The translations under genes were made by a program, and so were the position numbers. DNA of 32,627 bases from a virus. The stretch spans positions 1-32,627 of IMG/VR virus record IMGVR_UViG_3300030222_000033. One strand, given 5' to 3'. Positions 1-32,627 of the stretch are shown in pieces (the first letter of the stretch is position 1; each line of letters starts with the position of its first letter). Under the pieces are notes generated by a model that was not told the origin of the DNA, did no database searches, and saw nothing but the letters and a program-made list of their open reading frames with translations.

Positions 1-105
1 CGTGCTGATGCCGTGATTGCGGCAGACATCCGCAGTCGGCGCTCCGGCCTCCTGCTCCTTAATCATGCCGATGATCTGTGCCTCGGTGAAACGTGAGCGT
101 CTCAT
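1..105 (-). CDS. IS3-family transposase OrfA, N-terminal fragment (partial)
   Basis: The minus-strand frame from ATG at 105 reads MRRSRFTEAQIIGMIKEQEA and continues with a TADVCRNHGIS segment. This is the conserved N-terminal helix-turn-helix of IS3-family OrfA proteins, which bind the element's terminal repeats and are normally fused by frameshifting to an integrase-core OrfB. A good Shine-Dalgarno (AAGGAG) stands about 8 nt upstream. The gene runs off the left edge after 35 codons, so it cannot be told whether it is intact. Confidence 0.85.
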   Translation of the reverse strand, partial: MRRSRFTEAQIIGMIKEQEAGAPTADVCRNHGIST

Positions 106-168
106 GTGTCGTCTCCTTGTCGAGACGAACTCTACTCATTATTGGAGGAGATTCAGGGTCGCAGGTCA
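1..168 (-). mobile_element. End of an IS3-family element (IS407-like group), cut by the window edge
   Basis: Read on the minus strand, the segment begins with TGACCTGC at 168, a TG-starting terminus as expected of an IS3-family inverted repeat. A leader follows, then a ribosome binding site AAGGAGAC and the start of a transposase OrfA. Only one end is visible, so the element's length, its second repeat and any target duplication cannot be judged. It lies 250 bp upstream of the aldehyde dehydrogenase operon and may have displaced that operon's original upstream region or supplied a promoter reading into it. The exact outer boundary is inferred from the terminal CA at 167-168. Confidence 0.75.
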
Positions 169-420: not shown

Positions 421-1629
421 GTGTCAACACGTAATGACATTCGCGAGATTCGAGAGAACTACGCCCGTTTGTTTAGCCAGCTTGGGGAGAGAATCCTTAC
501 CAACAAGTCCTCATTGCTTCCCCTCCTTATGACTGTCGAGACGGCCGCTACAGCCGAAGACGAAATTGAGAAGTCGGTTCGCGCTTTGCGGACCTATCAC
601 CGTGAACTGGATATGATTCAGGAACGGGAACCAATTGGAACGGTTCTTGTGTCCCTTCCTTTCAATAATCCCCTATACTCCCTTATACTTTATTCATTCG
701 GTCCGCTGATTGGTGGAAATCGTGTCATCATAAGGCCATCGGCAATAACGCGCGATGTTGTGATAGCAATACTTCACCTATTTCCGGAGATCTCAGACGA
801 GTTAGGGCTGACTATCTTCGAAGGCTCCGGAAAGGATTTCATTCAAAAGGCATCCCGAAGCGATGAGGTCCAGGGGCTCATCTTTGCTGGCAATTGGGAC
901 AACGTCACTCGCTTGATGTCAGATTTCCCACCGAACAAACGGCTAATTTACTGCGGCTCTGGAATTAATCCATTCGTGGTAGATAAAGATGCATTAGACT
1001 CTATTGGCATGAATCATGTCTCCCGGTTGATCGTAGACAGCAAAATATATAATTCCGGTCAAGATTGCCTATGCACTGAAAGGATATTCGTTCACCATAC
1101 GCTATGTGATAGCCTTTTAAATGCTCTAGAGTCTGCAATACTGAGTCTAAAAGTAGGTGACTTTGGTGACGTAAATGCTGACATCAACCCTCTACTTGGT
1201 GGTATCGCGAATTCTGCGCAAGCGATCGCAAATCGTGCGTCGCACGCAGATTGGATTATCCCATTCAGAAAAGAGGGTGCCTTAGTTTATCCCTCGCTCG
1301 CATACGCAGCTATAGACTCGGAGATTGTAAATTCTGAGAAGTTTTCACCGGTCTTTACGGTCGCTGGCTTCGATAGTTATCATCAACTAGATCGTGCGCT
1401 CGATTTTCAATACATGTTTGGTGTGACCATTTGCGGCTCTTACTCGTCTGATATTTTGTGCCTTTACCCCCATGTCACAAAGACGGAGACCGTGATTAGC
1501 AACGAGTCGGAGGACGCGCATGTTCCATTTGGGGGTCGAAGGAGATCGGGCTTTGTAAAACTAGACTCGTCAATCCATGATGGCCCTATCCTTTATTCGG
1601 TAGAAACGACTGTACCTGCACAGTGGTGA
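421..1629 (+). CDS. Aldehyde dehydrogenase-fold protein, CoA-acylating / LuxC-like
   Basis: A 402-residue protein of the aldehyde dehydrogenase superfamily. Seen: FNNP in the cofactor region, the catalytic cysteine in NSGQDC (C216), EKFSP near 306 and the C-terminal PFGG..RSG near 369. Canonical NAD-dependent enzymes have ELGGK with a general-base Glu; here the segment is CGSGINPFVVD, as in CoA-acylating dehydrogenases and LuxC-type acyl-CoA reductases, which lack that Glu. It is about 80 residues shorter than classical members, mostly at the N-terminus. I chose GTG at 421 because a GAGG lies 10 nt upstream; an in-frame TTG at 391 has no binding site. It is first in a four-gene operon, 31 nt before a canonical paralog. 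Inferred role: reduction or interconversion of an acyl thioester and an aldehyde; substrate unknown. Confidence 0.75.
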   Translation: MSTRNDIREIRENYARLFSQLGERILTNKSSLLPLLMTVETAATAEDEIEKSVRALRTYHRELDMIQEREPIGTVLVSLPFNNPLYSLILYSFGPLIGGNRVIIRPSAITRDVVIAILHLFPEISDELGLTIFEGSGKDFIQKASRSDEVQGLIFAGNWDNVTRLMSDFPPNKRLIYCGSGINPFVVDKDALDSIGMNHVSRLIVDSKIYNSGQDCLCTERIFVHHTLCDSLLNALESAILSLKVGDFGDVNADINPLLGGIANSAQAIANRASHADWIIPFRKEGALVYPSLAYAAIDSEIVNSEKFSPVFTVAGFDSYHQLDRALDFQYMFGVTICGSYSSDILCLYPHVTKTETVISNESEDAHVPFGGRRRSGFVKLDSSIHDGPILYSVETTVPAQW

Positions 1630-1660
1630 CATTTGGACTGAAAAATGGGAGAATAGCGTT

Positions 1661-3124
1661 ATGAAAATCAACAACGAATTGTTTGTTGGTGGGGAATTTA
1701 ACTCGGCAACTGACGGGCGCACCTTTCCGAACGTTAATCCCGCCACAGAGGAAGTTATCTGTAACGTCGCATTGGCGAACACCGCAGATGTCAATGCAGC
1801 CGTTAAGTCATCTATTTCGGCACAACAAGAATGGGCGGCATTGGATCCAAGCCGCCGGGGGCAGATCGTCACTGCAATGGCCGACGCCATCGAGGCTAAT
1901 GGAGAAGAACTCGCAAATCTCGATTGTTTGGATGGCGGTCGGCCGCTTCCGGATTGCCAGGAAGACATTCATGCTGCCACAAATATGTTCCGCTATTTTG
2001 GAGGTTTGGCCGACAAGATATTTGGCCAAACAATTCCCGTACAGAATGACAAACTATGCTACACAAAGCGGGTGCCTTACGGCGTAATAGCCGCCATCAC
2101 AGCCTGGAACTACCCATTATTCAACGCTTCTGCGAAGGTTGCCCCGATTATTGCGATGGGGAACAGCTGTATTTTGAAGCCTGCCGAAGAGACTCCGTTG
2201 ACGACGCTACGCTTGGCCGAAATCCTTCAGGACCTTGATGGGGTTCCGCCCGGGCTCGTGAATGTCCTGACTGGACCTGGTGAAATCACCGGCGAGGCGA
2301 TTACCCGGCACGAGGATATCGGAAAGGTATCGTTTACTGGCAGTACCGATACCGGAAGGCGGATATTGATAGCTTCAGCCGAAAGCAACCTGAAAGGTGC
2401 GGTACTGGAGCTTGGCGGCAAGGGGCCATTCGTCGTCTTTGATGACGCTGACTTGGAGATGGCGCTTAATGGAATAACATTTTCTATCTTCTATAATCAA
2501 GGGCAGACTTGTACCGCTGGAACCAGATTGATCGTACATAAGGCAATTTTGGACCAAGTCATTGATGGACTGAAGAAGAGGATCGATCGTATCCACGTAG
2601 GTAACCCACTACATGAAGATACGGTAGTGGGTCCTTTGATTTCAAAGGCACAGTTTGACACTGTGTGCGGCTACATTTCCGACGCGAAGGAGGATGGATT
2701 CGAACCAATAATAGGGCGTGGAAAGGCGGAAGGGTTTGAATCAGGGTATTATGTCGAGCCAACCGTATTTGTAGATGTTCCGATAGACTATAAGTTGTTT
2801 ACGGATGAGATCTTTGGTCCGGTTCTTGTTGTTAATACGTTTGAGAGTGACGAAGAAGCTATGACGATCGCAAATCGTACGAAATATGGACTTGCTGCAA
2901 GCATTTGGACTGCTTCAAGCAAACGTCTCGTAAACGTAGGCGATCGCATAAACTGCGGAATAGTTTGGTGTAATACGACTTTTGCCGAGCATCCTGGCGC
3001 ACCGGCGGGTGGTTTCAATCAGAGCGGTTTTGGCCGTGAATATGGGACTTCCGCTATTGATGAATATACCAAACTAAAGACAATCTGGATTGACAAATCT
3101 GGTGAATTCTTTTCTTGGCCTTAA
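1661..3124 (+). CDS. NAD(P)-dependent aldehyde dehydrogenase
   Basis: A full-length 487-residue aldehyde dehydrogenase, cytosolic, oxidising an aldehyde to the acid. The classical motifs are all present: WNYP (149-152), KPAE (173-176), FTGST (225-229) in the Rossmann region, ELGGKGP with general base E250, GQTC with nucleophile C284, and EIFGP near 383. Betaine-aldehyde or gamma-aminobutyraldehyde dehydrogenases are the closest style, but the substrate cannot be read from sequence. Its start is preceded by a GGGAG at 1647-1651. It sits 31 nt after the shorter paralog and 6 nt before an unknown gene. The pair could act in sequence: one forms an aldehyde from a thioester, this one oxidises it, or the reverse. 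Confidence 0.92.
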   Translation: MKINNELFVGGEFNSATDGRTFPNVNPATEEVICNVALANTADVNAAVKSSISAQQEWAALDPSRRGQIVTAMADAIEANGEELANLDCLDGGRPLPDCQEDIHAATNMFRYFGGLADKIFGQTIPVQNDKLCYTKRVPYGVIAAITAWNYPLFNASAKVAPIIAMGNSCILKPAEETPLTTLRLAEILQDLDGVPPGLVNVLTGPGEITGEAITRHEDIGKVSFTGSTDTGRRILIASAESNLKGAVLELGGKGPFVVFDDADLEMALNGITFSIFYNQGQTCTAGTRLIVHKAILDQVIDGLKKRIDRIHVGNPLHEDTVVGPLISKAQFDTVCGYISDAKEDGFEPIIGRGKAEGFESGYYVEPTVFVDVPIDYKLFTDEIFGPVLVVNTFESDEEAMTIANRTKYGLAASIWTASSKRLVNVGDRINCGIVWCNTTFAEHPGAPAGGFNQSGFGREYGTSAIDEYTKLKTIWIDKSGEFFSWP

Positions 3125-3130
3125 TTCTAG

Positions 3131-4564
3131 ATGGTCTGGGCGTCATTTAGATCAATCGGCGAACTTGGTCAGCTCCGAGTTGGGGCACTGGGACGTCTTT
3201 TCTTTGAACGTTGCGCGGTCATCGATCAAGTACGAGCACACGTAACTGGTGTTGAGTACCTTTCTCGGCACGGCATCAGCCTCACATTGATCCTCGATGA
3301 CGACAGGGACTACGAATTCCTGGACGCACTACGTAATTCAGAGTACGTCGCGTCCACTAATCGCATTGGGCGCTTTTTTAACATTGTTTTTGATCGCCGT
3401 ATACGAGACCTTTATTTGGATCTACGCCTTAAAGAGCAATCAGATGTTAAACGTCTAATTGTTGAACACACGAGCCTCTTACCCGTTTATCCGCTGAATC
3501 TAGCGACTTTCAGATTGAGTGTGGTGGGTGAATGGTTCCGTCGCGCTCTGGTTTTTTTGGGCAACGATGTTCAGGCTCATTTTTGGGTACAAGACTCCGC
3601 GCGCCAGGTTGATTTGGTGAAGGCGCAGTTGCGGCGCGGTAGCTATACGTCAACTAAAACTGCGTTTGGCAAGGGCGATCACACAATAGGACTGATTTTT
3701 GCTGAAGCACTTTTGATGGAAGATGGTATCAGCAAAAGAAAGGCGCGAAAAGATGCCACTCGGTTGTTCCCGCTCGGGGCGAGCGGAATTCGCCGCCCGG
3801 GATATGGAAATTGGATTCTAGATGTCATTGCTGGTTGGCGCAGTACGTTGAGTACGGCGGGAGTTCACATCGACCGTTTCGACCGAGACGCAGACCTCTT
3901 AGAGTCTTGTAGCTATGGCGAGTTATTACAGGCGGCAGGACGAAGGCCCAATGTCCGGATTTCGTTGCCAACAACTGCGTCAAAGCCGGGAAACCTGACT
4001 TACTTGGAATGGTCGGTCATCTATTACTGCTATCTACTTCAGAAGGCGGACTATGTCGTCTCCGTAGCGTCGGCTCGACAAAGAGCGATCCTAGAGGAGG
4101 CCAGGGATTATGCGTGCTTCATTCGAAAAAGGCCAACTGATGCGCTGCAGGTTGTGCCGGTAGGAGACGTCTTTTGTAATGGAGAGTTGGATAGTGTTCG
4201 CGCCGGACGTTTCCATCTCGTTGATAACTTGGATTTCTATTCGCAACGAAACGTACAATGGTTGATTGCCAGGTACCTGACAGCGCGCCCCACTACGAAC
4301 CTGAAACTCCGTTTTCCGATTGAAGAGAGGGGCGATCCAGATGTCGTTAAATGGGATAAAACCGATGAAGTCGTCTATGCGTGTATGCTACTAGACTCAC
4401 TCCCACTGGTTGTACGAGTTTGTATTAGCGATGGTGATTTTGCTCCGCTAATTAGGTGGACCGCCAAAGCAAAAGTTTGTCGAGCCAGACTTGGCACACG
4501 CGTAGCGGAGCTTTCTCGGGACATCGCGTCTGCATGTGACGCTTTTGACCCGTTCCCTTCTTAG
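3131..4564 (+). CDS. Protein of unknown function in the aldehyde dehydrogenase operon
   Basis: A 477-residue soluble protein that I do not recognise. No signal peptide, membrane helix, P-loop or zinc motif is visible. It mixes alternating alpha/beta-looking segments (a strand ending LTLILDDD near residue 55) with helical stretches, and a conserved-looking YLEWSVIYYCYLLQKADY segment near 295. The start lies 6 nt after the previous stop with no clear Shine-Dalgarno, which suggests translational coupling. The next gene starts 8 nt after its stop, so the four genes are almost certainly co-transcribed. An enzyme acting on the metabolite handled by the dehydrogenases is possible but only inference from context. 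Confidence 0.7.
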   Translation: MVWASFRSIGELGQLRVGALGRLFFERCAVIDQVRAHVTGVEYLSRHGISLTLILDDDRDYEFLDALRNSEYVASTNRIGRFFNIVFDRRIRDLYLDLRLKEQSDVKRLIVEHTSLLPVYPLNLATFRLSVVGEWFRRALVFLGNDVQAHFWVQDSARQVDLVKAQLRRGSYTSTKTAFGKGDHTIGLIFAEALLMEDGISKRKARKDATRLFPLGASGIRRPGYGNWILDVIAGWRSTLSTAGVHIDRFDRDADLLESCSYGELLQAAGRRPNVRISLPTTASKPGNLTYLEWSVIYYCYLLQKADYVVSVASARQRAILEEARDYACFIRKRPTDALQVVPVGDVFCNGELDSVRAGRFHLVDNLDFYSQRNVQWLIARYLTARPTTNLKLRFPIEERGDPDVVKWDKTDEVVYACMLLDSLPLVVRVCISDGDFAPLIRWTAKAKVCRARLGTRVAELSRDIASACDAFDPFPS

Positions 4565-4572
4565 GAGAACCA

Positions 4573-5991
4573 ATGCCGGTTCAATTCTATCAGTTCGGAC
4601 AGAGTCCTTTCAGAGATGAGCTTCTTGCACACTTTATTGTGCCGGCAGCGAATTGGTTCTTGGGAGAGAAATCTAGCGCTTATCTTCTTCCGCAGATAAG
4701 CGGAAGCCATTGGGAATGTGCACTCGCTGTGGAAGCGATGTTCTCGATTTTTGATTTCGATGCGACGCCTCCCAACTTTGACTCTACGATGGCACGTGAA
4801 AAGTGCGTCCAGACTATTCGTTGGTTGATTTCTAGGGCGGAATCAGTCGGTTCCGGTCGTAGCAGTTGGGATGGTGTAACTTGGGACACAGCGATTTGCT
4901 GCCGACTTCTTCTAAAAGCCGAGAAGGAGTTGGAATCATCCTGGAGCGCTCACGACAAAACGAACATCGCATCAATACGTGAAAATTCAGTTCGATGGCT
5001 TGTGGAGACCGCCATTCAATGGGATCGAGATGTAAGGTACCCCGCAGGTCCTCCAGACCTTGCCCAAGTGCTGCATACCCTTTCTTTGATGTCGCGATCG
5101 CATCCAGAACTTCTAGGAAAGATTGAAAGCGAAATTCATCTAGAGAATGGCGAGGGGATCATCGATAGGATTGCTCGTGTGCTGCTGGGCATGGAACAGA
5201 CGCAAAAACAGCAGCTTTCAGACGGCACTATCGATGTCAGCTACTGGGTTGATTGCTTCAATACCGCTGAAGTAATCGAAGGCTTGGCAGCCTACGTAGA
5301 TCTGCACAAGGATCAATGTGTAGAATCGAACTCTGGACTTTTTCAAGCTGTTCGGAGATCGCTGTTTAGTGCACTTCAGTATATCGAAACGAACCAAGTT
5401 GATGCGACATGGGGTGGCGTGGCAGACACATGCGGAACTCTTTACGGGTATCTACGGGTAACGAGTATGATGGATGGAATTTCCCCTCAAAACCATTCTG
5501 TATTTCAGGCTTTGCGTTGGATGTGCGACGAAAAGCAGGCACTAGATGATGGTAGTTTTCTTCATACCAGCTATGTCACAGTGTTTTTTCTGATGGCGTT
5601 GGTCGAGGCTTATAGGTCCTGGAAGCTTGGCTACAAGTCTGGTCCAGAAGTATACGATATTGCTCTCTGGTCATCGCCCGCACAAGAAACCGTGGAAAGG
5701 AGTCGGCGCATCGGATTGCAGATAGAGCTTGATGATAAAAGGCTTCTTATATTGGATTTGAAACATCGAATTAGGAACCTAAATATGATTTTCACGGCGG
5801 TTTTTGCTTTTGCGTTTCAGGTTATTATTTTGCTTTGGATTTTAAATGTAATGGGGACAATGAATGTTGACTTAGCTAGTATGAATGTTGATTTGTTGGA
5901 TTACGATAAGTTTTGGACTGTTTTTGGACTTGGAATAACAATTATCTTGGTGTCGACACCTGCCATTGTGTCTTTAGTTTTCAGGCGGTAA
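4573..5991 (+). CDS. Alpha/alpha-toroid-like protein with two C-terminal transmembrane helices
   Basis: A 472-residue protein. The first 380 residues are helical and carry spaced segments reminiscent of the terpenoid cyclase/prenyltransferase alpha-alpha toroid: SWDGVTWDTAICCRLLL, SYWVDCFNTAEVIEGLAAY, ATWGGVADTCGTLYGYL and DDGSFLHTSYVTVFFLMAL. I see no DxDD cyclase motif, so catalysis as a terpene cyclase is not supported. A charged, possibly coiled-coil stretch leads to two hydrophobic helices at about 405-427 and 447-469, separated by a short linker with a duplicated MNVDL. A soluble domain anchored at the inner membrane is the likely topology. A TAGGAG stands 7 nt upstream of the start. 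It closes the operon. Toroid assignment is by pattern only and moderately uncertain. Confidence 0.7.
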   Translation: MPVQFYQFGQSPFRDELLAHFIVPAANWFLGEKSSAYLLPQISGSHWECALAVEAMFSIFDFDATPPNFDSTMAREKCVQTIRWLISRAESVGSGRSSWDGVTWDTAICCRLLLKAEKELESSWSAHDKTNIASIRENSVRWLVETAIQWDRDVRYPAGPPDLAQVLHTLSLMSRSHPELLGKIESEIHLENGEGIIDRIARVLLGMEQTQKQQLSDGTIDVSYWVDCFNTAEVIEGLAAYVDLHKDQCVESNSGLFQAVRRSLFSALQYIETNQVDATWGGVADTCGTLYGYLRVTSMMDGISPQNHSVFQALRWMCDEKQALDDGSFLHTSYVTVFFLMALVEAYRSWKLGYKSGPEVYDIALWSSPAQETVERSRRIGLQIELDDKRLLILDLKHRIRNLNMIFTAVFAFAFQVIILLWILNVMGTMNVDLASMNVDLLDYDKFWTVFGLGITIILVSTPAIVSLVFRR

Positions 5992-6354: not shown

Positions 6355-7539
6355 TCAGCCAGCCACCAAGCTGTCCAAGAGGTTGGCCCATTCCTGCATC
6401 AACCGCACGCGCTGGTCCCAGTAGGTAGCGCGGTTGTAGGTACGGCGGATAGCGTTGCGGTCTTGGTGAGCCAGGACAGCCTCGATCACGTCAGGGTCAT
6501 ATCCGCGCGCATTGAGGATGGTGCTGGCAGTAACGCGGAAGCCATGTGCCGTCACTTCGTCCTTGCCATAGCCCATGCGCCGCAGCGCGGCGTTGAAGGC
6601 AACTTCCGACAGCGGCTTCTTTTGCGTGCGGATGGATGGAAACACCAGTTCTGCTCCCTCTGAGAGTGGCCGGATGTCGTTGAGGACAGCCAACGCCTGC
6701 TTGGACAACGGAACATCATGCGACTGGCGCATCTTCATGCGCTCAGCTGGAATGCGCCAAACGGCTTTCTCAAGATAAAACTCATCCCAGCGTGCGTGCC
6801 GCACCTCGCCTGGACGGACACAGGTCAACATCAGGAACTTGAGACCGGCCGCCACGGTGGGCCAGCCGTCATACTCGTCGATCGCTTGAAGCAGCGCCCC
6901 CAGCTCGCCCTCGTCAGTGATGGCCGCGCGGCCTTTTACCAACGGCGGCAGCAGCGCGCCGTGGAGCGCTTGGGTGGGATCGGTGTCAACTCGCAGGGTA
7001 GAGATGGCTAAGCGAAAGACCGTGCCGATGGTTCCGCGCAGCCGCCGCGCGGTCTCGCGGCGTCCACTGATCTCCACTCGTTTGAGCAGGTCAAGGATTT
7101 CAGCGGCAGTGATCTCGCGAATTGGGCGGCCGCGCAGTGGTTTTGCCAAGTCCTGAAGCAGCCAGCGGGCCTTGTCTAACGTGGTCTTGGCAGCGCCAGT
7201 AGCGATGAGACGTTCTATGTGCTCATCAGCGATCAGACCGAAGGTTTGCCGTGCGGCGGTCTCAGCTTCAATGCGGTCAGCCTTGCGCTTGGCAGCCGGA
7301 TCGATGCCGTTGGCGAGGAGACTCTTGGCCTCATCGCGTTTGCGGCGCGCCTCAACCAGCGTCACGTGCGGGTAGCGCCCGAATGACAGCACGTTCTCTT
7401 TCTGCCGAAACCGGTAGCGCAGTTGCCATAGCTTTGAGCCGTTTGGTCTGACCAAGAGATGCAGACCATCACCGTCGCTCATGCGATATTGCTTTGGGCG
7501 TGGCTTGGCCTTGCGGAGGGCGAAATCAGAGAGGGCCAT
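6355..7539 (-). CDS. P4-type tyrosine recombinase / integrase
   Basis: A 394-residue site-specific recombinase that would integrate and excise its island at the neighbouring tRNA-Phe site. The N-terminus (MALSDFALRKAKP, then LHLLVRPNGSKLWQLRYRF) is the DUF4102 arm-binding domain of P4-like integrases. The catalytic domain shows CVRPGEV with the first Arg, AHGFR (HxxR), a LAH and the RTYNR tyrosine near the C-terminus. I chose ATG at 7539, where family homology starts, over an upstream in-frame start at 7578 lying among repeat sites. The gene begins 164 bp from the 3' end of a tRNA-Phe remnant and reads in the same direction, the standard layout for P4-like islands, so it belongs to the element extending to the left. 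Confidence 0.93.
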   Translation of the reverse strand: MALSDFALRKAKPRPKQYRMSDGDGLHLLVRPNGSKLWQLRYRFRQKENVLSFGRYPHVTLVEARRKRDEAKSLLANGIDPAAKRKADRIEAETAARQTFGLIADEHIERLIATGAAKTTLDKARWLLQDLAKPLRGRPIREITAAEILDLLKRVEISGRRETARRLRGTIGTVFRLAISTLRVDTDPTQALHGALLPPLVKGRAAITDEGELGALLQAIDEYDGWPTVAAGLKFLMLTCVRPGEVRHARWDEFYLEKAVWRIPAERMKMRQSHDVPLSKQALAVLNDIRPLSEGAELVFPSIRTQKKPLSEVAFNAALRRMGYGKDEVTAHGFRVTASTILNARGYDPDVIEAVLAHQDRNAIRRTYNRATYWDQRVRLMQEWANLLDSLVAG

Positions 7540-7542
7540 TGC

Positions 7543-7588
7543 GGGTAACAAGTTTTGGTGTTTGGGTAACAATCCCAACTGTTACCCA
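7543..7588. promoter_or_regulatory. Cluster of GGGTAACA sites upstream of the integrase
   Basis: GGGTAACA occurs at 7543-7550 and 7564-7571, and its inverse TGTTACCC at 7580-7587. Direct copies are 21 bp apart, two helical turns. The position, between the att repeat and the integrase start, fits arm-type integrase sites or an excisionase/AlpA-type operator controlling int; which one is inference. Confidence 0.5.
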
Positions 7589-7702: not shown

Positions 7703-7748
7703 TGGTGCCCGGGGGCGGATTTGAACCACCGACACGCGGATTTTCAAT
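7703..7748 (-). repeat. Attachment site: 46-bp direct repeat, tRNA-Phe 3' half (copy 1)
   Basis: On the minus strand this is the 3' portion of tRNA-Phe from the anticodon loop (TTGAAAA, anticodon GAA) through the T arm (TTCAAAT loop flanked by GGTGG and CCGCC) to the acceptor strand CCCGGGC, A and CCA. The 5' half is absent, so it is not a gene. An identical 46-bp copy lies at 23139-23184 in the same orientation. Such repeats form when islands integrate at the tRNA 3' end. The rest of the gene-free stretch 7540-7920 holds the GGGTAACA sites and nothing else I can name. Confidence 0.9.
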
Positions 7749-7920: not shown

Positions 7921-8754
7921 TCAGCTAAAGCCACCTTCACAAAACCAATCGGAGGTCGCTAGCGCTCGATACATTGCCGTCTGCCAAGAATTCGGATGGG
8001 CATCTTGGCAGCTTTCAAAGCGGAGTTGCAGCTCATCTCGAACATCCTGAGCTGTTCCGCGCTCAGATATGAGCCGCAAGCCATATTGGATATTCACCAG
8101 CTCGACTGCCGAATGAGATGCATATAGGGCACCTAGACCAAAAACAGTGAAATGATGCCGAACTCGTTCCTGTTTTGCTGCCGACCAATCGCTTAGGGGT
8201 TTGACAACATATCTGAGCGCAGCGGGACTTACTTCCAACACTTCGGCGTACAGCCAAGCACCATCGTCCACGTTGTCGAAATATGGATGTAGCGTTTGCT
8301 CGGCCTCTTTTGTTGGCTGCGCGTTAAGTTTTGCCTTGTTGCAATCGGCGCAACACGGCAAGAGGTTCGCTGGCGAGAGAGCTAGTGCAGGATGCAGAGA
8401 TTGCGCAAGGTAGTGATCGAGAGTTCCGACCGTTCGTTGACCACACATTGGGCAGATGTCATTTGCGGGGAGTTTCTTGATAGCATCGTATATCGGACGC
8501 GTCTTTTTGCTCTTAACAAATGTATTTTTATAGACTCGTTTCATTTCTTCAGCCGTGACGCCATTGGCCACTTCTGCTTGAGCGATCTGGAATAGTGCGC
8601 CGATTGCAGCGCGTCCTAGGTAGGCCGCCTCTGCTGACTCAAAGTGGTCTGCAGCTCCTTTGAGGCGCGCTTTTAAGTCTGGATTTTGGATGCTTTCGGC
8701 GCAGAGTTCCAGAACGCCACGCGAAACCTCGGTAGGTCGATCAAGCTTACGCAT
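7921..8754 (-). CDS. ptuB: Septu-like HNH endonuclease (PtuB-like)
   Basis: A 277-residue protein with a zinc-bound HNH nuclease core: CPMC (C101, C104), the DH pair at 113-114, N130 and CADCNKAK (C135, C138, N139). In Septu systems the HNH protein is the nuclease that acts with the ATPase PtuA against phage. Here it follows the ATPase gene by only 6 nt on the same strand, so the two are co-transcribed. Length is close to that of PtuB proteins. The N-terminal 95 residues are helical and the C-terminal half shows no second catalytic motif. Retron-type systems such as Ec78 use similar ATPase/HNH pairs, but no reverse transcriptase is seen nearby. The symbol is given by architecture, not by database match. 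Confidence 0.8.
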   Translation of the reverse strand: MRKLDRPTEVSRGVLELCAESIQNPDLKARLKGAADHFESAEAAYLGRAAIGALFQIAQAEVANGVTAEEMKRVYKNTFVKSKKTRPIYDAIKKLPANDICPMCGQRTVGTLDHYLAQSLHPALALSPANLLPCCADCNKAKLNAQPTKEAEQTLHPYFDNVDDGAWLYAEVLEVSPAALRYVVKPLSDWSAAKQERVRHHFTVFGLGALYASHSAVELVNIQYGLRLISERGTAQDVRDELQLRFESCQDAHPNSWQTAMYRALATSDWFCEGGFS

Positions 8755-8760
8755 TCTAGC

Positions 8761-10320
8761 TCAAGCCTCACCATCACGCTTCGATACTAACGCCCGAACC
8801 ACCGCTCGAGCTTCCGCACCAAGTTGCCCACCAAAATGCTCAAGCGCCTGGTCGTAACTCAACCTGCGCACCATCACCGCATCATCAAGCATACGGTGAA
8901 ACCCGGATTTGGTGATCTCAAAACCGAAAACCTCCCGCGTTAGGACGCCCACATTTTCCCCAAAAGTCTCGACCACCGGTCTCTCGACGACGGATACAGC
9001 GCCTGAGCGACGTAGTTTCCATGCGCAGGACCTTGGGACCTCCTGCAAGACCACTGGCGAGTGCGTAGCGACAATGGCCACTCCGTTGCGCTTAACGAGT
9101 AGGTCGGAGAGTGCTCTGATGAAGGCCGATAAAAGCGGTGGATGAAGATGCCCCTCAGGTTCGTCCAAGAGGACCAGCGTGCGTTCATCAACGAGTTCCA
9201 CCAATTTTGTTATCGTCAGTAGGACAATCGCATGACCAGAACTAAGCCTCCTATAGAGACCGAAAGCAGCATCGCTCCACGCATCATCATCCATTTCCAA
9301 TAACGCGGAAACATTGGCCTCAGCGAATAGGTCATCTGCCTCGAGGGTCTGGACAGCCAAGAGCCAGCGCTCTGATCTTAAACCCTGTCGGCAAAGCGAA
9401 AAGCTCTCCGTGAAATCTCTCGCTAGATCCTGCGGGGTTTTTCTCGAAACAAAGTCCCCGTCCTCTGCGTCTGTTTGCCATTGAAGTAACCCAACCTGCT
9501 CGCAGCGCATTGGATCTTCGGGAGAGGATCGCAGAGGCACATCATCGAATGCACTGAAGGAGGTAACCACGAGCCCCGAGAAAGACCACTCGTCTCCGGC
9601 AGCATCTTCAATGATTTGACCCACCGCATCGTCAGCAATTTCGGGCGTTCGTCCAAGAAGCGCTAAGGCAATTCCCCGCATACAACGGGTCTTGCCCACG
9701 CCGTTCCGACCGATGAGCACATGGACATTCGTCGGTGGCCTAGACTCTGGGAATACCTCAAACCTTATTGACGGCGGTTCTATCCCCTCGCTCTGCACCG
9801 GGAACGCGTAGCTAAACTTGTACTCCGTTAGTGTTGCATCGCCGTGTGACAGTCGGTGCAGCCGTCCCTTAACGCTTTTCGGGCTCACACTTCGAAGAAG
9901 TGACGTCGTCATCACGTTTTCAAAGCGCGCGGCAGCAAATATCTCCAGATCAAAGGCGCAGTCCCGGAGACCTAGAAGTACACGTTGCCGCTGGTTCTTG
10001 GAGAGGCCGTTGAGGGTCTCGTAGTAGTCCTCATCCTGACCAAGAGAGAAGAACCTATCATCCAGCTCATCAAACGCTTGTTCCATATCAGGGGAACGAA
10101 CGTCAGGCGCAGGTTCAACGCCCTGACCAGAGGCGCGAAGGCCAAATTGGCCAATTTTAACAGAGCCTACCCGGTGCCTTTTACTCTCTTCATCAAAAAC
10201 CCATAGAGTGAACATTGTCTGGAATCTGAACCAGTCATCCCAATTGTCCACGAGTAAGAAAGCTTGATCCTTTGCATCTGCAGGAACTTCGCCCCAACTC
10301 TTAATTACTGTGAAGAACAT
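8761..10320 (-). CDS. ptuA: Septu-like ABC/AAA-type ATPase (PtuA-like)
   Basis: A 519-residue ATPase of the ABC/SMC-like AAA group found in phage defence. It has the Walker A GRNGVGKT (204-211), an ABC-type signature LSSGH (359-363), Walker B TLVLLDEPEGHLHP (381-394) and the switch histidine in ATHSP (418-422). A long insertion between Walker A and the signature, and a 200-residue N-terminal region, match the PtuA layout. In Septu it forms a complex with PtuB and licenses its nuclease. ATG at 10320 is preferred to an upstream in-frame codon at 10350 because GGAG stands just upstream. The 108-bp gap to the divergent integrase must hold promoters for both genes. Confidence 0.82.
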   Translation of the reverse strand: MFFTVIKSWGEVPADAKDQAFLLVDNWDDWFRFQTMFTLWVFDEESKRHRVGSVKIGQFGLRASGQGVEPAPDVRSPDMEQAFDELDDRFFSLGQDEDYYETLNGLSKNQRQRVLLGLRDCAFDLEIFAAARFENVMTTSLLRSVSPKSVKGRLHRLSHGDATLTEYKFSYAFPVQSEGIEPPSIRFEVFPESRPPTNVHVLIGRNGVGKTRCMRGIALALLGRTPEIADDAVGQIIEDAAGDEWSFSGLVVTSFSAFDDVPLRSSPEDPMRCEQVGLLQWQTDAEDGDFVSRKTPQDLARDFTESFSLCRQGLRSERWLLAVQTLEADDLFAEANVSALLEMDDDAWSDAAFGLYRRLSSGHAIVLLTITKLVELVDERTLVLLDEPEGHLHPPLLSAFIRALSDLLVKRNGVAIVATHSPVVLQEVPRSCAWKLRRSGAVSVVERPVVETFGENVGVLTREVFGFEITKSGFHRMLDDAVMVRRLSYDQALEHFGGQLGAEARAVVRALVSKRDGEA

Positions 10321-10428
10321 ATTTTCTCCGAGTACCGCACAGCACCACACGGACCATTACACCATCGGTCGCAGTACGCCTCAAACCATACCCTGACACG
10401 CGGATCTTTCGATCTTAATTTCGGCGTC

Positions 10429-11682
10429 ATGAAACGACGCCTGACACCCAAGACCATTGATGCGCTGCCGCCTGCCGTCAACAAGCGGTACGAGGTGCAT
10501 GACCAATTGCTGCCCGGGCTGCACCTGCGTGTGTCGGCCACAGGTGGGAAGGTGTTTTACGTCTCCAAGCGCGTCAACGGCCATATGAAGCGGATCAAAA
10601 TCGGTTCGTGGCCCATCCTGACGCTGCACGAGGCGCGCGACAAGGCACGCAGCATTCTCCGCTCAATCGAACTTGGCCGCTATGTCGAGAAGGCACCACA
10701 CGAGGAAGAACAGCGCATGATGACGCTGGGCGAAGTGGTGCCGCAATTCATCGAGCTTTACGCCAAGCAGCGCACCAAGGACTGGAAGGGCAGCGAGCGC
10801 GTGCTGCTTAAATTCTCTTCCCTGTTCTCGCGCCCCATCGACCAGATCAAACGTGCTGATGTTGTGCGCGTGCTCGACACGATCATTGCCGGTGGCGCAC
10901 CGACACGGGCGAACCGGGCGCTGGCTGCGATCAAGAAGCTCATGAACTGGTGCATTGATCGCGGCATTATCGAGACATCGCCCGTGGCTGCTCTCAGAGC
11001 GCCCACGAAGGAGATTGCGCGTGATCGTGTGCTCGGTGATCAGGAATTGATCGCTATATACGATGCTGGCTCGTCCGAAGGCTTCCCATTCGAACCACTT
11101 CTCAAACTGCTCATCCTTACAGGTCAACGCCGTGGTGAGGTCGCAGGGATGCGCTGGCCCGAGCTTGATCTCGACAAGGGCATTTGGACACTTCCTGCCA
11201 AGCGCGCCAAGAATGCCACTTCGCACATCGTACCGTTGGCGCCCTTGGTGATCTCGATCTTGAAATCCGTTCCAAGGGTTCAGGGAAGCGATCTGGTGTT
11301 CACGACAACAGGCACATCACCCATTTCAGGCTTTGGGCGACTGAAAGAACGCCTTGATATTGCCGTTGGCCTCGACGCCGAAGATTGGCGCTTTCACGAC
11401 CTGCGCCGGACGATGGCAACAAACATGGCGATGATGCGCGTCCAGCCGCATATCATAGAGGCCGTCCTCAACCACAAGACAGGTATCGTCTCCGGCGTTG
11501 CAGCTACCTACAATCGCCATGCATATCTGGATGAAAAGCGTGAGGCGCTGGAGCTATGGGCGAGGAAGATCGAGGAACTCGTCTATCCGGCTGACAAGAC
11601 CAATGGCAGAGATAACGACCAAGATGTTCGTCTCGCCGGTCGAGGCGTTTCAGATTGTGGGGCAGGAGAGCTTCGGCCCTGA
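10429..11682 (+). CDS. P4-type tyrosine recombinase / integrase (second)
   Basis: A 417-residue integrase. The N-terminal DUF4102 arm-binding domain (LTPKTIDALPP, then GLHLRVSATGGKVFYVSKR) is followed by a core-binding domain and a catalytic domain with TGQRRGEV (first Arg), a KRAKN segment, HDLRRT (HxxR), LNHKTG and the ATYNRH tyrosine. All catalytic residues are present, so it looks active. ATG at 10429 starts at the family N-terminus; an upstream extension to 10264 would overlap the divergent ATPase gene. Its 3' end overlaps the next reading frame by 80 nt. No obvious att repeat adjoins it, unlike the first integrase. Confidence 0.92.
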   Translation: MKRRLTPKTIDALPPAVNKRYEVHDQLLPGLHLRVSATGGKVFYVSKRVNGHMKRIKIGSWPILTLHEARDKARSILRSIELGRYVEKAPHEEEQRMMTLGEVVPQFIELYAKQRTKDWKGSERVLLKFSSLFSRPIDQIKRADVVRVLDTIIAGGAPTRANRALAAIKKLMNWCIDRGIIETSPVAALRAPTKEIARDRVLGDQELIAIYDAGSSEGFPFEPLLKLLILTGQRRGEVAGMRWPELDLDKGIWTLPAKRAKNATSHIVPLAPLVISILKSVPRVQGSDLVFTTTGTSPISGFGRLKERLDIAVGLDAEDWRFHDLRRTMATNMAMMRVQPHIIEAVLNHKTGIVSGVAATYNRHAYLDEKREALELWARKIEELVYPADKTNGRDNDQDVRLAGRGVSDCGAGELRP

Positions 11683-16469: not shown

Positions 16470-17561
16470 CTAGTCTAGCCTGGGTCGTAGGGCGAGTACC
16501 TGTTCAGGTTCCAATTTCGGCGACAGGGCTTTGAACATCTCGACCGCCATCTTCATCGGCACCGCATTTCCGATCTGAGCTGCAATCTGCGAATGGTTGC
16601 CGCAGAAAAAATAGTCGTCCGGAAACGTTTGCAATCGTGCCGCCTCTCTCAAGGTTATCGCTCGATCCTCAACCGGGTGGGCGAATCGGCCGCGCGTAAC
16701 GTCGCTGCAGCCGGTTGTCAGCGTAGGGGCCACATCATCCCAACTCATTCTCCCGTACACGTCCGGGAAACTGCTGGGGCCCAACCTCGCGTGGCATTTT
16801 AGCTGCAGGTCTTCGGGTAGAGAAAGCCTGCTCCCCCCGTCCTTCGGTATGGCAGCTAGCCTCTTCAGCGTAATCTTGGCATGCCGGCGCGCAACGTGCA
16901 AAGTATCCTGCATATCGCGGTCACCGGAACTCAACCTTGACAAGCCTAGAAGAGCTCGGCGCACACTAGATCGCTCTCTCGGAACAACAGAGTTCGCAAT
17001 GAAATGGTCAACGACGGACTGCTTCCGCGACGCAACAAGCACGAACCTGATCCGGCGCTGTGGTACACCGAGATCGGCAGCATCGACCTTAAGCGGGCTT
17101 CCCACGGAGTAGCCAAGGCGCTTGAGCCCGTCAACGAGCCGACTCGATACCGTCGAGTTTGCCAGTCCAGGCACATTCTCGATCCAAATCGTTGCTGGTC
17201 GCAAAGCGTGCACGAAACGCAAGGCCTCCAATAGGAGCCGACTGCGGCGATCTTGGCTCGAGCGTTTTCTGTTCTGCGAGCTGAACGGCTGGCACGGAGC
17301 GCATACTGTCAGCATATCGATTCCCTCGACGTCCAATTCATCTCTTACGCTCGTCGCCGAGACTTTCCGAATATCCGCCTCGTAAAACCTAACCTCCGGG
17401 TGATTTGCCTTGTACGTGAGGGCGGCGATTGGATCGATATCAATAGCTGCGGCCACGTGGAAGCCGACAGACCTCAACGCAGCAGTGACCGAGCCCGAAC
17501 CGCTGAAAAGGTCGACGGCGATAGGCGAACCAAGCGGGCATAGGTTTGAGGAACCAGACAT
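16470..17561 (-). CDS. DNA cytosine-5 methyltransferase
   Basis: A 363-residue C5 methyltransferase that transfers a methyl group from S-adenosylmethionine to cytosine. Motifs in order: I DLFSGSG (17-23), IV PCQPFS with catalytic C90, VI ENVPG (128-132), VIII QRRIR (168-172), a short target-recognition region, and IX/X RLQTFPDDY and QIGNAVP near the end. All are intact. It starts 9 nt after the receiver-protein gene stops, so it is the last gene of a three-gene operon. A divergent Vsr-like nuclease lies upstream of the operon. The recognition sequence cannot be predicted. It probably protects self DNA from the module's nuclease activity. Confidence 0.93.
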   Translation of the reverse strand: MSGSSNLCPLGSPIAVDLFSGSGSVTAALRSVGFHVAAAIDIDPIAALTYKANHPEVRFYEADIRKVSATSVRDELDVEGIDMLTVCAPCQPFSSQNRKRSSQDRRSRLLLEALRFVHALRPATIWIENVPGLANSTVSSRLVDGLKRLGYSVGSPLKVDAADLGVPQRRIRFVLVASRKQSVVDHFIANSVVPRERSSVRRALLGLSRLSSGDRDMQDTLHVARRHAKITLKRLAAIPKDGGSRLSLPEDLQLKCHARLGPSSFPDVYGRMSWDDVAPTLTTGCSDVTRGRFAHPVEDRAITLREAARLQTFPDDYFFCGNHSQIAAQIGNAVPMKMAVEMFKALSPKLEPEQVLALRPRLD

Positions 17562-17570
17562 AACGTCAAC

Positions 17571-19232
17571 CTATGAGGAGTGAAGGCGAAGCCATTCTGA
17601 TTGATCGATGCCAATGCGGCTGTAGTTGCCCGTGAGCTTTGCCACATAGCTAAGAACTTGGGTCTCGCGTACTTCACCAAGCCAGCGCCACCTGCGATCC
17701 TGAGAGTCCAAAAACACCCAAGCCCCATCGGATTTGTCCGCCACTACAGCCTTCTCAGTTTTGGATGGTTTGAAAACGATGGTCGTTAGCCTCGGGTCCT
17801 TATGGTTTAGTCGAAAAGAGGTCGGCTCTTGATCGTCCATCACTATCAGATCAAAAGTGCTGTTATCCTTTTCCAACTCGACCATCAGGAACCCGCGTTC
17901 CTTGGTTAACCGCACCGAGTCGCAACGGGGCTGCAGGCAAAGCAGCCGTTGCGCGGTTCCATCGCCATCGGGCACTTCTTCCAGAAGGACTCCTAAGGTG
18001 AGGATAGGTTTGCGCACAGGAAGCCGATCGCCGCCGCGCCCAGGGTGCGTGACCAAAGTTGTAAGCATCGAAAATTTTCGCTGCGCTTTGTCGGATTCAG
18101 CGTTGTCCGCATAAAACGCAGAGAATATCTTCTTGAGCTGCGTTCCGTTCCCATCAGTTTTTTCAGATAGGCCTGCCTTAAGTAGATACCTTCTTGCAAC
18201 AGCATCAATATTTAGGGATTTTTCGTTGTACGTCAGACCGCCCGGTTTAGGTTTGAATTGAATATTTGCCTTTGGGGAGTGCAACTTTGACTGGTCGGCG
18301 AGCCACTTCTGCGCGGCGACCGAGCCAAGCGTTGCAGAGGGCACGTCCATCGTTTCAATCGAGTTCGAAATCTCCGAAAGCATCACGTCTTTCATCAAGC
18401 GCCCAGCATCATCAGGGTCGGGCAACGACGCTCGCTGCCCAGCAAAAGCCCCATCCAGTTCAGGAGGAAATTGCGCCAGGATACGATGAGTATCTGCTCT
18501 TATCGATGCAACGGACTTAAGTGCAAATGATCGCAAAAGGCCTTTCGTGAAGTCGGCAAACTCTTGCTCGACACGATCCGGAAGTTGGTTCCATGCCACC
18601 ACATTGGTGTCATCGCCGTACTGGCTTCCAATTGTTGGCTTGTTGAAGAACCGAATTCGACAATTCTTGTCTTCAAGTGTTACAGGGCTCGTTTGTACGA
18701 GCGGAAGATCAGGCAACGCGTCTTTCAGCGTCTTCGTTTGGTCCTCCAACGGCGTCGCTGCCGTATAAATTGCTATCAGCCTAAGCCGCCCGCCGATATC
18801 TCTATCTTCGCTGAGCAGCTTGCCGACGATTTCGATTGCCGCGTCGGGACTCCCGTCCTCGAGCTGCCAATCGAGAATTGCAACATCGGCATGCCTTGCA
18901 ATATCGACCGATGTTTCTACGATCTCGCTTCGTCGCAGCTTCTCCTGATCGGGATAGAATGAGCCGCACGTAAGACCTTTTGCCGCAAAGGCGTTTGCAA
19001 CTGTTCGATACTCAAGTCGGTGCGAGTCGGTCTCTGCTTGGGCTGCGACCGTATCATCTGCCTCCTTGCGCGGCTTTGCCGCCGCCTTGAGTGGCGAGGT
19101 TGCTCGGCTTCGGGTCGCCGGCCCCTCTACAGTCTTAGCCTCCGGCTCCGGCTGGTTGTCGACAATTACAACAGTCTGAAGGAAGTCGCTGGCTATGGCA
19201 CGACAGTGCTTTTCGAAATTCCCCGCAGTCAT
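17571..19232 (-). CDS. Receiver-domain protein with large C-terminal region of unknown function
   Basis: A 553-residue protein with an N-terminal phosphoacceptor receiver. Seen: VVIVDN with acidic D25, the phosphoacceptor strand DVAILDWQLEDGSP (D121), a switch Thr in IAIYTAA (T157) and the lysine in RIRFFNKPT (K198). A low-complexity Ala/Lys/Glu insert (about 30-70) interrupts the receiver after the first strand. It resembles the atypical response-receiver family paired with GHKL kinases. The 350-residue C-terminus has no known output domain: no helix-turn-helix or nuclease motif is evident. Its ATG overlaps the kinase stop by 4 nt, so translation is coupled and the two are surely partners. 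Phosphorylation by the kinase probably switches the C-terminus. Confidence 0.85.
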   Translation of the reverse strand: MTAGNFEKHCRAIASDFLQTVVIVDNQPEPEAKTVEGPATRSRATSPLKAAAKPRKEADDTVAAQAETDSHRLEYRTVANAFAAKGLTCGSFYPDQEKLRRSEIVETSVDIARHADVAILDWQLEDGSPDAAIEIVGKLLSEDRDIGGRLRLIAIYTAATPLEDQTKTLKDALPDLPLVQTSPVTLEDKNCRIRFFNKPTIGSQYGDDTNVVAWNQLPDRVEQEFADFTKGLLRSFALKSVASIRADTHRILAQFPPELDGAFAGQRASLPDPDDAGRLMKDVMLSEISNSIETMDVPSATLGSVAAQKWLADQSKLHSPKANIQFKPKPGGLTYNEKSLNIDAVARRYLLKAGLSEKTDGNGTQLKKIFSAFYADNAESDKAQRKFSMLTTLVTHPGRGGDRLPVRKPILTLGVLLEEVPDGDGTAQRLLCLQPRCDSVRLTKERGFLMVELEKDNSTFDLIVMDDQEPTSFRLNHKDPRLTTIVFKPSKTEKAVVADKSDGAWVFLDSQDRRWRWLGEVRETQVLSYVAKLTGNYSRIGIDQSEWLRLHSS

Positions 19233-22964: not shown

Positions 22965-23010
22965 TGGTAGCGGAGGAGGGACTCGAACTCCCGCCACAAG
23001 GATTATGATA
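22965..23010 (-). repeat. tRNA 3' remnant with a CAT anticodon (old attachment site)
   Basis: On the minus strand this reads from an anticodon loop ATCATAA through TCCTT, a variable loop, a T arm with TTCGAGT and the acceptor strand CTCCGCT, A and CCA, matching tRNA-Met or tRNA-Ile2 type genes. The 5' half is missing and the T stem has an A/C mismatch, so it is not functional. It is best read as an attachment-site relic of another element. TGATACCCA copies at 23006-23014 and 23052-23060, and TGACACCCA at 22889-22897, flank it and may be arm-type integrase sites. Confidence 0.7.
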
Positions 23011-23138: not shown

Positions 23139-23184
23139 TGGTGCCCGGGGGCGGATTTGAACCACCGACACGCGGATTTTCAAT
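23139..23184 (-). repeat. Attachment site: 46-bp direct repeat, tRNA-Phe 3' half (copy 2)
   Basis: Base-for-base identical to 7703-7748 and in the same orientation, from the anticodon loop to CCA of tRNA-Phe(GAA). The sequence to its right does not form the 5' half of the tRNA, so the intact gene should lie beyond the right edge of the window, on the minus strand, if the elements are in tandem. Confidence 0.9.
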
Positions 23185-31320: not shown

Positions 31321-31557
31321 ATGCCCGCCACGAACCTGAACATCGTTGTCGTCAACCGTCGCATGCTCTCGGCGCGCGAAGCCGCCGAATATTGCGGCGT
31401 TCCCGCCAGGCGGTTCGCGGCGGTCTGCGATGTCGAGCCAGTCGAGATCGCCGGCGGCCTTGTCCGCTATGATCGTCACGCGCTCGATCGCTGGCTCGAT
31501 GCGCTGTCGGCCGAGGATGCGGACGCCGACGATGAAATCCTGGCGCGGCTGTCATGA
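31321..31557 (+). CDS. Excisionase-like / AlpA-type helix-turn-helix protein
   Basis: A 78-residue DNA-binding protein. MLSAREAAEYCGVPARRFAA followed by DRHALDRWLDAL is the classical helix-turn-helix of excisionase-like DNA-binding proteins. AAGGA lies 8 nt before ATG at 31321; an ATG two codons earlier is too close to it. The gene overlaps the integrase start by 4 nt, as Xis-Int pairs often do, so it probably directs excision. Confidence 0.8.
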   Translation: MPATNLNIVVVNRRMLSAREAAEYCGVPARRFAAVCDVEPVEIAGGLVRYDRHALDRWLDALSAEDADADDEILARLS

Positions 31558-32627
31558 GCCGGGTGCGGATAAAGGGCTTCCAGATCTTCAAAGACCGCCA
31601 CGGCAAGTGGCGCTGCTATCATCGGGCCACGCGCACGCCGATCGACCTCGACAAGCATCCTGTCGGCTCGGCAGGCTTCATCGCCGAATGCGACCGCCTG
31701 ACCCGCCTCGCCGGCAAGGGACTCGCGGCCAAGCCCGGAACACTCGGGCTTCTCGTTCAGCGCTACAAGGCCAGTGCCGAATTCCAGGACCTGGCAGCGC
31801 GCACACAGGCGGACTATCAGCGCGTCTTCGACTATCTCCAGGCGATCGACGACACACCCTTGACGCGCTTCACCTCGCCCATGGTGGTCAAGATTCGTGA
31901 CAAGGCGGCCCAGGCGAAGGGTCGACGGTTCGGAAACTACACGCGGACCGTTCTCAGCCTTCTGTTCGCATGGGGCCGTGAGCGCGGATACCTGGCTTCG
32001 AATCCGGCCGAGGGCATTCGCAGCATTCGCCGGCCGCGCGGTGCGCCTGAAGCGAACCGCCCATGGATGGACGATGAGCGCCATGCCGTCATGGACGCGT
32101 TGCCGGCTGCCATGCGCCTTCCCATGGCCTTGATGATGTATTGCGGCCTCGACCCGCAGGACGCGCTCTCATTGCCGCGCTCGGCGATCACGGGCGGCAT
32201 GATCGATACCCGAAGAGGTAAGACGGGCGTTCCGGTCTGGTTGCCCGCGCCCTCGCCCGTAGCGGACGCGCTGAGGGATGCGCCGACGCACGATGCCATA
32301 ACTGTATGCGCCAACTCTCGCGGGCAACCATGGACTGGCTCGGGCTTCAGGGCATCATGGCGTCGCGTCAAGCTGGCGCTCGAGGCCGAGGGCAAGGTCA
32401 GGCCTGGCCTGACCTTGAAGGGGCTCCGGCACACGGTCGCGACGATCCTTTCGGAAATGGGACACGATCCGGAGACGATCCGGATCATGCTGGGGCAGAA
32501 GACCGACGCGATGGCGCGGCACTATTCCCGTCGCGCCGATCACACGAGCCGCATGTCCGCGACGATCAAGGATTTCGACGCCGAACTGGACAGACGGCGA
32601 ACGAAGAATGTCAAACCGGGCCAGTAA
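31554..32627 (+). CDS. Divergent tyrosine recombinase / integrase
   Basis: A 357-residue integrase whose stop codon is the last three bases of the window. The N-terminus (SRVRIKGFQIFKDRHGKWRC) is an AP2-like arm-binding domain, then a core-binding domain (TLGLLVQRYKASAEF). The catalytic domain deviates: the first Arg position reads CGLDPQDAL with no Arg, the HxxR box reads KGLRHT (Lys for His), the LGH box is LGQ, while the KTG lysine and the ARHYSRR tyrosine remain. These substitutions look like those of a subfamily of alphaproteobacterial integrases, not random decay. The orientation, toward the right edge, suggests the attachment site lies just beyond the window. Confidence 0.88.
   Translation: MSRVRIKGFQIFKDRHGKWRCYHRATRTPIDLDKHPVGSAGFIAECDRLTRLAGKGLAAKPGTLGLLVQRYKASAEFQDLAARTQADYQRVFDYLQAIDDTPLTRFTSPMVVKIRDKAAQAKGRRFGNYTRTVLSLLFAWGRERGYLASNPAEGIRSIRRPRGAPEANRPWMDDERHAVMDALPAAMRLPMALMMYCGLDPQDALSLPRSAITGGMIDTRRGKTGVPVWLPAPSPVADALRDAPTHDAITVCANSRGQPWTGSGFRASWRRVKLALEAEGKVRPGLTLKGLRHTVATILSEMGHDPETIRIMLGQKTDAMARHYSRRADHTSRMSATIKDFDAELDRRRTKNVKPGQ

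Follow-up and report, generated by a model that had tools for sequence, protein, structure and literature searches.

The 32.6-kb IMG/VR virus record analyzed here, in its full length of 32,627 nucleotides referred to as the window, opens inside the 5′ end of an OrfA transposase gene of what we take to be the IS3 type. This gene fragment borders an operon of four plus-strand ORFs, named ALDH1, ALDH2, P3 and P4 (Table 1). The intergenic gaps of 31, 6 and 8 nt given in the first-pass annotation of the window were confirmed from the ORF coordinates. The ALDH1 ORF begins with a TTG codon at position 391, but translation more likely starts at the alternative GTG codon at position 421, in view of the GAGG sequence preceding it and of the similarly short ALDH1 proteins of the relatives described below. 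The GC3 values of the four operon genes are 0.45–0.49, compared to 0.70 for the adjacent integrase gene int_A and 0.74–0.82 for the phage core genes. A search with Rfam revealed no RNA families in the window.

Table 1. Coordinates of the operon genes, integrases, repeats and neighbouring gene clusters in the window.
Feature	Position	Strand	Remarks
OrfA transposase gene, 5′ end	1..107	-	presumably IS3 family; translation MRRSRFTEAQIIGMIKEQEAGAPTADVCRNHGIST
ALDH1	421..1629	+	PF00171, E 2e-37; Cys-only, FusE-like subfamily (predicted)
ALDH2	1661..3124	+	PF00171, E 6e-164; canonical type (predicted), GQTC and ELGGK
P3	3131..4564	+	ArgRS-derived, without HIGH or KMSKS; NCBIfam and PDB profile matches
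P4	4573..5991	+	predicted alpha/alpha toroid with two C-terminal membrane helices; AlphaFold2 model
int_A	6355..7578	-	tyrosine integrase of the operon-carrying element; PF13356, PF00589, PF22022
att site, 46 bp	7703..7748	-	exact direct repeat of 23139-23184
Septu-type pair	7921..10350	-	PtuB/PDC-M01B HNH protein and PtuA/PDC-M01A ATPase
Phage_integrase gene	10264..11682	+
Cytosine methylase, response-receiver and 994-aa HEF_HK/HATPase protein	16470..22213	-	receiver: PF19192
Degenerate att-repeat match	22965..23004		reads like the 3′ end of another tRNA
Second att copy, 46 bp	23139..23184
Phage_integrase gene	31554..32627	+	runs to the end of the record

The carrier element and its neighbours

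The integrase gene int_A reads away from the first copy of the 46-bp repeat, which is located 125 bp from its start. Read on the minus strand, this repeat presumably corresponds to the segment of tRNA-Phe(GAA) from the anticodon loop to the CCA end. Relatives of int_A were found in two viral contigs, L002 and L003, whose integrases are 55–59% identical. In these contigs, the last 16–17 bases of the tRNA-Phe end occur with at most one mismatch 120 and 173 bp upstream of the integrase start. Because the tRNA end shows a matching geometry beside these related integrases, the operon can be assigned to the interior of the int_A element, i.e., to the element side of its att site, as already assumed in the first-pass annotation. 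The possibility that the operon is host chromosome rather than cargo was rejected on the same geometry. The far end of the int_A element falls outside the record. Integrase relatives also occur in Aminobacter, Xanthobacter and Ruegeria, which makes an alphaproteobacterial host probable.

The two copies of the repeat bound a 15.4-kb element, so that elements appear to be arranged in tandem at a single tRNA site. In addition to Septu and a second integrase, this other element right of the first att site carries a primase-polymerase and a cluster for a methylase, a histidine kinase and a receiver protein; the Septu-type pair is located between the tRNA-Phe att site and the second integrase. The 994-aa HEF_HK/HATPase protein shows weak LmuB and REase_II matches, and the cluster it belongs to is possibly a further conflict system. 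The degenerate repeat precedes the second att copy by 135 bp and could be a remnant of another integration. Besides int_A, two more Phage_integrase genes were detected in the window (Table 1).

This setting would suit a role of the operon in anti-phage defence, in which infection would prompt the enzymes to synthesise or eliminate a small molecule that activates P4 at the membrane and thereby halts the cell or the phage. The operon occupies the cargo slot directly behind the integrase at the tRNA-Phe site, and the tandem array includes the Septu (PtuAB) pair, only 2 kb away, as well as the methylase, HEF_HK and receiver cluster. However, these defence genes belong to another element across the att site, and Septu and the operon have no proteins in common. 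Furthermore, none of the four operon proteins matches a PADLOC model, nor does the operon encode a nuclease, an NADase or any recognised sensor domain.

Occurrence of the four genes in other genomes

All four genes were also found together in L016, a contig of a low-GC uncultured bacterium, and in L017, a contig of an Oscillospiraceae MAG. Both were recovered only by a genome scan with the ALDH1 alignment (44% and 39%, respectively). The gene order of L016 is identical to that of the window and the proteins share 39–63% identity with their counterparts, whereas in L017 the last two genes are swapped (ALDH1, ALDH2, P4, P3) and the identities are 26–51%. Identities to the window for L016 and L017, respectively, are 43 and 38% for ALDH1, 63 and 51% for ALDH2, 39 and 26% for P3, and 44 and 34% for P4. 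In the trees of ALDH1 and of ALDH2 the window is paired with L016 (support 84/38 and 100/99, respectively), with L017 placed outside.

The L017 operon adjoins a transposase gene with an rve domain. A 540-bp gap between its ALDH1 and ALDH2 genes (1771–2310 of L017) resembles a transposase remnant, whereas its other genes stay close together. The operon contigs of both relatives have a GC content of 32–33%, compared to 38–40% for other contigs sampled from the same bins. This fits foreign DNA, but both are short MAG contigs, for which a binning error is also possible. Because full-length homologues of all four genes co-occur in two other genomes, the ORFs can be regarded as real genes rather than chance ORFs, and their joint recurrence in these unrelated bacteria marks them as one conserved unit. 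Outside this genome the set is thus conserved, in L016 together with its gene order.

As single-protein queries, P3 and P4 gave no match in the viral, genome and plasmid collections, and scans of viral contigs with A3, A4 and A5 were equally negative. Apart from L016 and L017, no P4 was detected in about 1,700 sampled genomes or in collections of 72,556 plasmids and 50,697 phages. Sampling of the genomes covered 387 genomes of the G001 phylum, 390 of the G002 class, 30 of the G001 order, 297 of the G002 family, 296 Actinomycetota and 300 Bacilli; they overlap partly and none is centred on Pseudomonadota, and the rarity holds for what was searched. No P4 match was obtained in 295 of the 296 Actinomycetota, and the weak match in the remaining one (L107, 20.8 bits) covers the membrane end only and was judged to be due to chance.

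Sequence and structure of the four proteins

In all three copies, ALDH2 contains the catalytic cysteine (GQTC) and the general-base glutamate (ELGGK), and by these motifs it is a canonical hydrolytic-type aldehyde dehydrogenase, in agreement with its initial annotation. It resembles betaine or aminobutyraldehyde dehydrogenases, as would be expected if the operon served the routine catabolism of an amine or aldehyde and lay on the element by chance. We consider this explanation hardly credible: among the window ORFs, no transporter, oxidase, transaminase or regulator is encoded beside the operon; an ArgRS relative without ATP site and a membrane toroid (see below) do not fit; and the operon is rare, mobile and of foreign GC content. 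Nor is it part of any known catabolic cluster.

ALDH1 differs from ALDH2 in having a YNSGQDC motif and lacking ELGGK and thus the general-base glutamate. Aldehyde dehydrogenases without this residue favour acyl transfer to a non-water acceptor, or reduction. The Cys-only type of ALDH1 is compatible with acyl transfer, in accordance with the earlier description of the protein as a CoA-acylating-like dehydrogenase. In a phylogenetic tree, ALDH1 and the FusE-like enzymes split from the canonical aldehyde dehydrogenases with a support of 100/100, and the ALDH1 proteins of the window, L016 and L017 formed a separate clade (100/100), with long branches inside the ALDH1/FusE-like group that make the finer placement unsure. 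ALDH1 can hence be classified by sequence as a member of the Cys-only subfamily without glutamate that includes FusE, with 25–31% identity to the FusE-like clade. Besides the motif and the missing ELGGK, ALDH1 shares its short length with FusE.

FusE itself could be placed through Paenibacillus loci corresponding to fusE (1224 bp) and fusD (1701 bp) in the gene cluster for the lipopeptide fusaricidin, its length and neighbours agreeing with locus L043. Deletion of any of the genes fusA to fusG abolished antifungal activity, and the lipid of fusaricidin is the guanidino-bearing 15-guanidino-3-hydroxypentadecanoic acid (PMC6829208). A ThDP enzyme is encoded near the FusE-like enzyme in 35 of 40 loci tested, often together with an acyl ligase and a ketosynthase, whereas ALDH1 has no ThDP enzyme as neighbour in any of the three operons and also no acyl-CoA ligase or ketosynthase beside it. 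In the Eubacterium MAG contig L022 (8429–11149), a FusE-like gene has radical SAM-like and flavin reductase-like neighbours and no ThDP enzyme. Actinobacterial clusters among loci L018–L055, which combine the FusE-like gene with genes for a ThDP enzyme, acyl ligase, ATP-grasp, GNAT and NikS-like proteins, are probably natural-product clusters.

P3 gave no match in Pfam at default reach and had been annotated as an unknown protein. Inspection of the sequence flanking the HIGH position, together with PDB and NCBIfam searches, revealed it as a recognisable homologue of arginyl-tRNA synthetase (ArgRS). All three P3 homologues match three NCBIfam arginine-tRNA ligase models (9e-20, 1e-7 and 4e-7), far below the curated model cut-offs. 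A phmmer search of PDB with P3 returned two ArgRS chains only (4e-4 and 0.15), and a profile of the three sequences placed eleven ArgRS chains first (best 3e-9), every significant match being an ArgRS. The alignment covers residues about 60–260, with PLNLATFR opposite P-HxGH-x-R, and takes in both the strand that precedes HIGH and the K..DH..G segment after it. HIGH is replaced by NLAT in the window and by SVAV and NMAT in the other copies, its glycine being changed to alanine in each. A KMSKS-like stretch is also absent from the three copies; the canonical KMSKS is missing from many ArgRS. Compared with the arginine pocket of yeast ArgRS, the arginine-contacting asparagine is apparently lost and the preceding glutamate kept. 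P3 is therefore a divergent, ArgRS-descended protein that has lost the ATP-binding HIGH motif. With this motif substituted in every copy, P3 is unlikely to activate arginine by the usual ATP-dependent reaction.

P3 is also shorter than ArgRS (477 compared to about 580 aa) and its C-terminal half is unrecognisable: neither a significant ArgRS match nor a Pfam match to the DALR tRNA-binding domain was obtained for it. A structure model from the three sequences reached a pLDDT of 41. These properties bear on the alternative that P3 acts at the level of tRNA, either by binding tRNA-Arg or arginyl-tRNA and passing the aminoacyl group to a partner, or by protecting or sensing tRNA-Arg, with ALDH1 reducing the aminoacyl ester. 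Its ArgRS descent would agree with such a role, as would the loss of the ATP motif with retained homology, which is also seen in cyclodipeptide synthases, where the aminoacyl group is handed on. In addition, the C-terminus of the L017 protein (NNGLSLLGI) resembles that of the ArgRS of G001 (RSGLQLLGI). However, the C-terminal ends of the window and L016 proteins do not align with that of L017, and since the C-terminal half has no significant ArgRS match, a tRNA-binding domain of P3 would be hypothetical. Overall, we consider an action on tRNA unlikely.

An AlphaFold2 model of P4 from three sequences (pLDDT 76.7, pTM 0.78) predicts an alpha/alpha toroid at residues about 13–366 and membrane helices at about 406–424 and 452–470. 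Two C-terminal hydrophobic helices are evident from the hydropathy of all three homologues, and the initial description as a soluble toroid with two such helices was borne out. P4 had no sequence-family match, and its model had no significant match among viral predicted structures. VIA-align of the model against toroid enzymes gave Z scores of 20–23, with an rmsd of about 3 over 257–296 residues for alignments with Z 22–23, among them oxidosqualene cyclase (Z 23.4, 296 residues, rmsd 3.4) and a GH76 mannanase (Z 23.2, 279 residues, rmsd 3.0). Weak matches of P4 to complement C5 reflect the common toroid fold.

The similarity of the model to squalene-hopene and drimenyl diphosphate synthases (Z about 22), and the fact that the FusE clade acts in a lipid-chain pathway, would suit a lipid or terpenoid pathway, with P4 acting in the manner of class II terpene cyclases and a prenyl or fatty aldehyde being oxidised by the dehydrogenases. 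However, GH76, GH105 and epimerase toroids score equally, and because of this tie between terpene cyclases and glycosidases the predicted fold does not name the function of P4. The DxDD motif is absent from P4 of the window and L016, and L017 has a single unconserved DHDD. The lipid or terpenoid reading of the first-pass annotation is therefore very improbable.

Invariant residues of P4 cluster where the six inner helices begin (31 of 54 positions, compared to 59 of 301 in the rest of the toroid, p 4e-8), the inner helices being assigned from the helix alternation in the predicted model. Conservation at these starts is also a feature of class II terpene cyclases and GH76/GH105 enzymes, from which P4 differs by its membrane helices. 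Only 9 of 51 positions are invariant at the outer-helix starts and 9 of 106 in the C-terminal membrane part. As conservation is focused on the pocket rather than on the membrane helices, the pocket is probably functional and the helices presumably serve mainly as an anchor. The idea of a specific membrane-pore effector thus found no support. For a function in defence the result cuts both ways, as P4 does have two membrane helices but these are its least conserved part. Including the low GC content, rarity and patchy distribution of the operon, which would also be in line with defence, we regard this function as plausible but not as the likeliest one.

A putative pathway and its alternatives

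We propose, with a probability of about 0.4, that the operon encodes a self-contained enzymatic pathway, spread by horizontal transfer, for an amino-acid-derived metabolite or modification, possibly guanidino-bearing, that ends at the membrane. The gene anatomy is observed, whereas the biochemical functions are inferred. P3 would retain its synthetase fold not to charge tRNA but to bind or transfer arginine, a compound resembling it or an aminoacyl-tRNA. The cysteine of ALDH1 would carry an acyl group for transfer to a non-water nucleophile or for reduction to an aldehyde, ALDH2 would oxidise an aldehyde intermediate, and the conserved pocket of P4 would act on or sense the product at the membrane. 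The resulting metabolite or modification might benefit the carrier element or its host.

The joint recurrence in L016 and L017, the branching of the window with L016 in both ALDH trees, the ArgRS homology of P3 with its replaced HIGH motif, the ALDH1 clade, the P4 pocket and the low GC3 argue for this pathway, and the requirement of FusE, a member of the ALDH1-related clade, for fusaricidin with its guanidino-bearing lipid points to the guanidino link. Against it stand the lack of a ThDP enzyme beside the operon, unlike in the FusE clusters, and the identity of at most about 31% between ALDH1 and this clade. The link to arginine is based on the ancestry of P3, whose specificity may have changed, since the arginine-binding asparagine appears to be lost. 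Defence is the main rival with respect to purpose and an action of P3 on tRNA with respect to chemistry. A further reading, in which P3 without ATP site gives arginine or arginyl-tRNA to a non-hydrolysing ALDH1 for the formation of an amino-aldehyde or guanidino compound that is read by P4 as signal or toxin, would represent a new type of mobile immunity or antagonism system, and seems quite unlikely.

Of the first-pass interpretation, the conserved unit, the type of ALDH1 and the toroid with its helices were retained, while the view of the third protein as unknown did not hold, and the terpenoid pathway and a specific membrane-pore effector found no support. Each part of the operon belongs to a known superfamily. 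Aminoacyl-tRNA synthetase relatives recruited to small-molecule synthesis include cyclodipeptide synthases, MshC and VlmL. These resemble P3 as synthetase-derived proteins, P3 being encoded in a biosynthetic-looking operon, but P3 differs in its ArgRS ancestor and its partner genes. A literature search for ArgRS paralogues associated with aldehyde dehydrogenases returned nothing relevant. Because no system is known to combine these four genes, and none was described in the libraries and literature searched, the four-gene system appears to be new. If P3 uses arginine or arginyl-tRNA without activation, it would be another example of a synthetase adapted to a different chemistry, and the four-gene operon offers a compact and directly testable way to a metabolite, modification or defence system that would be new.
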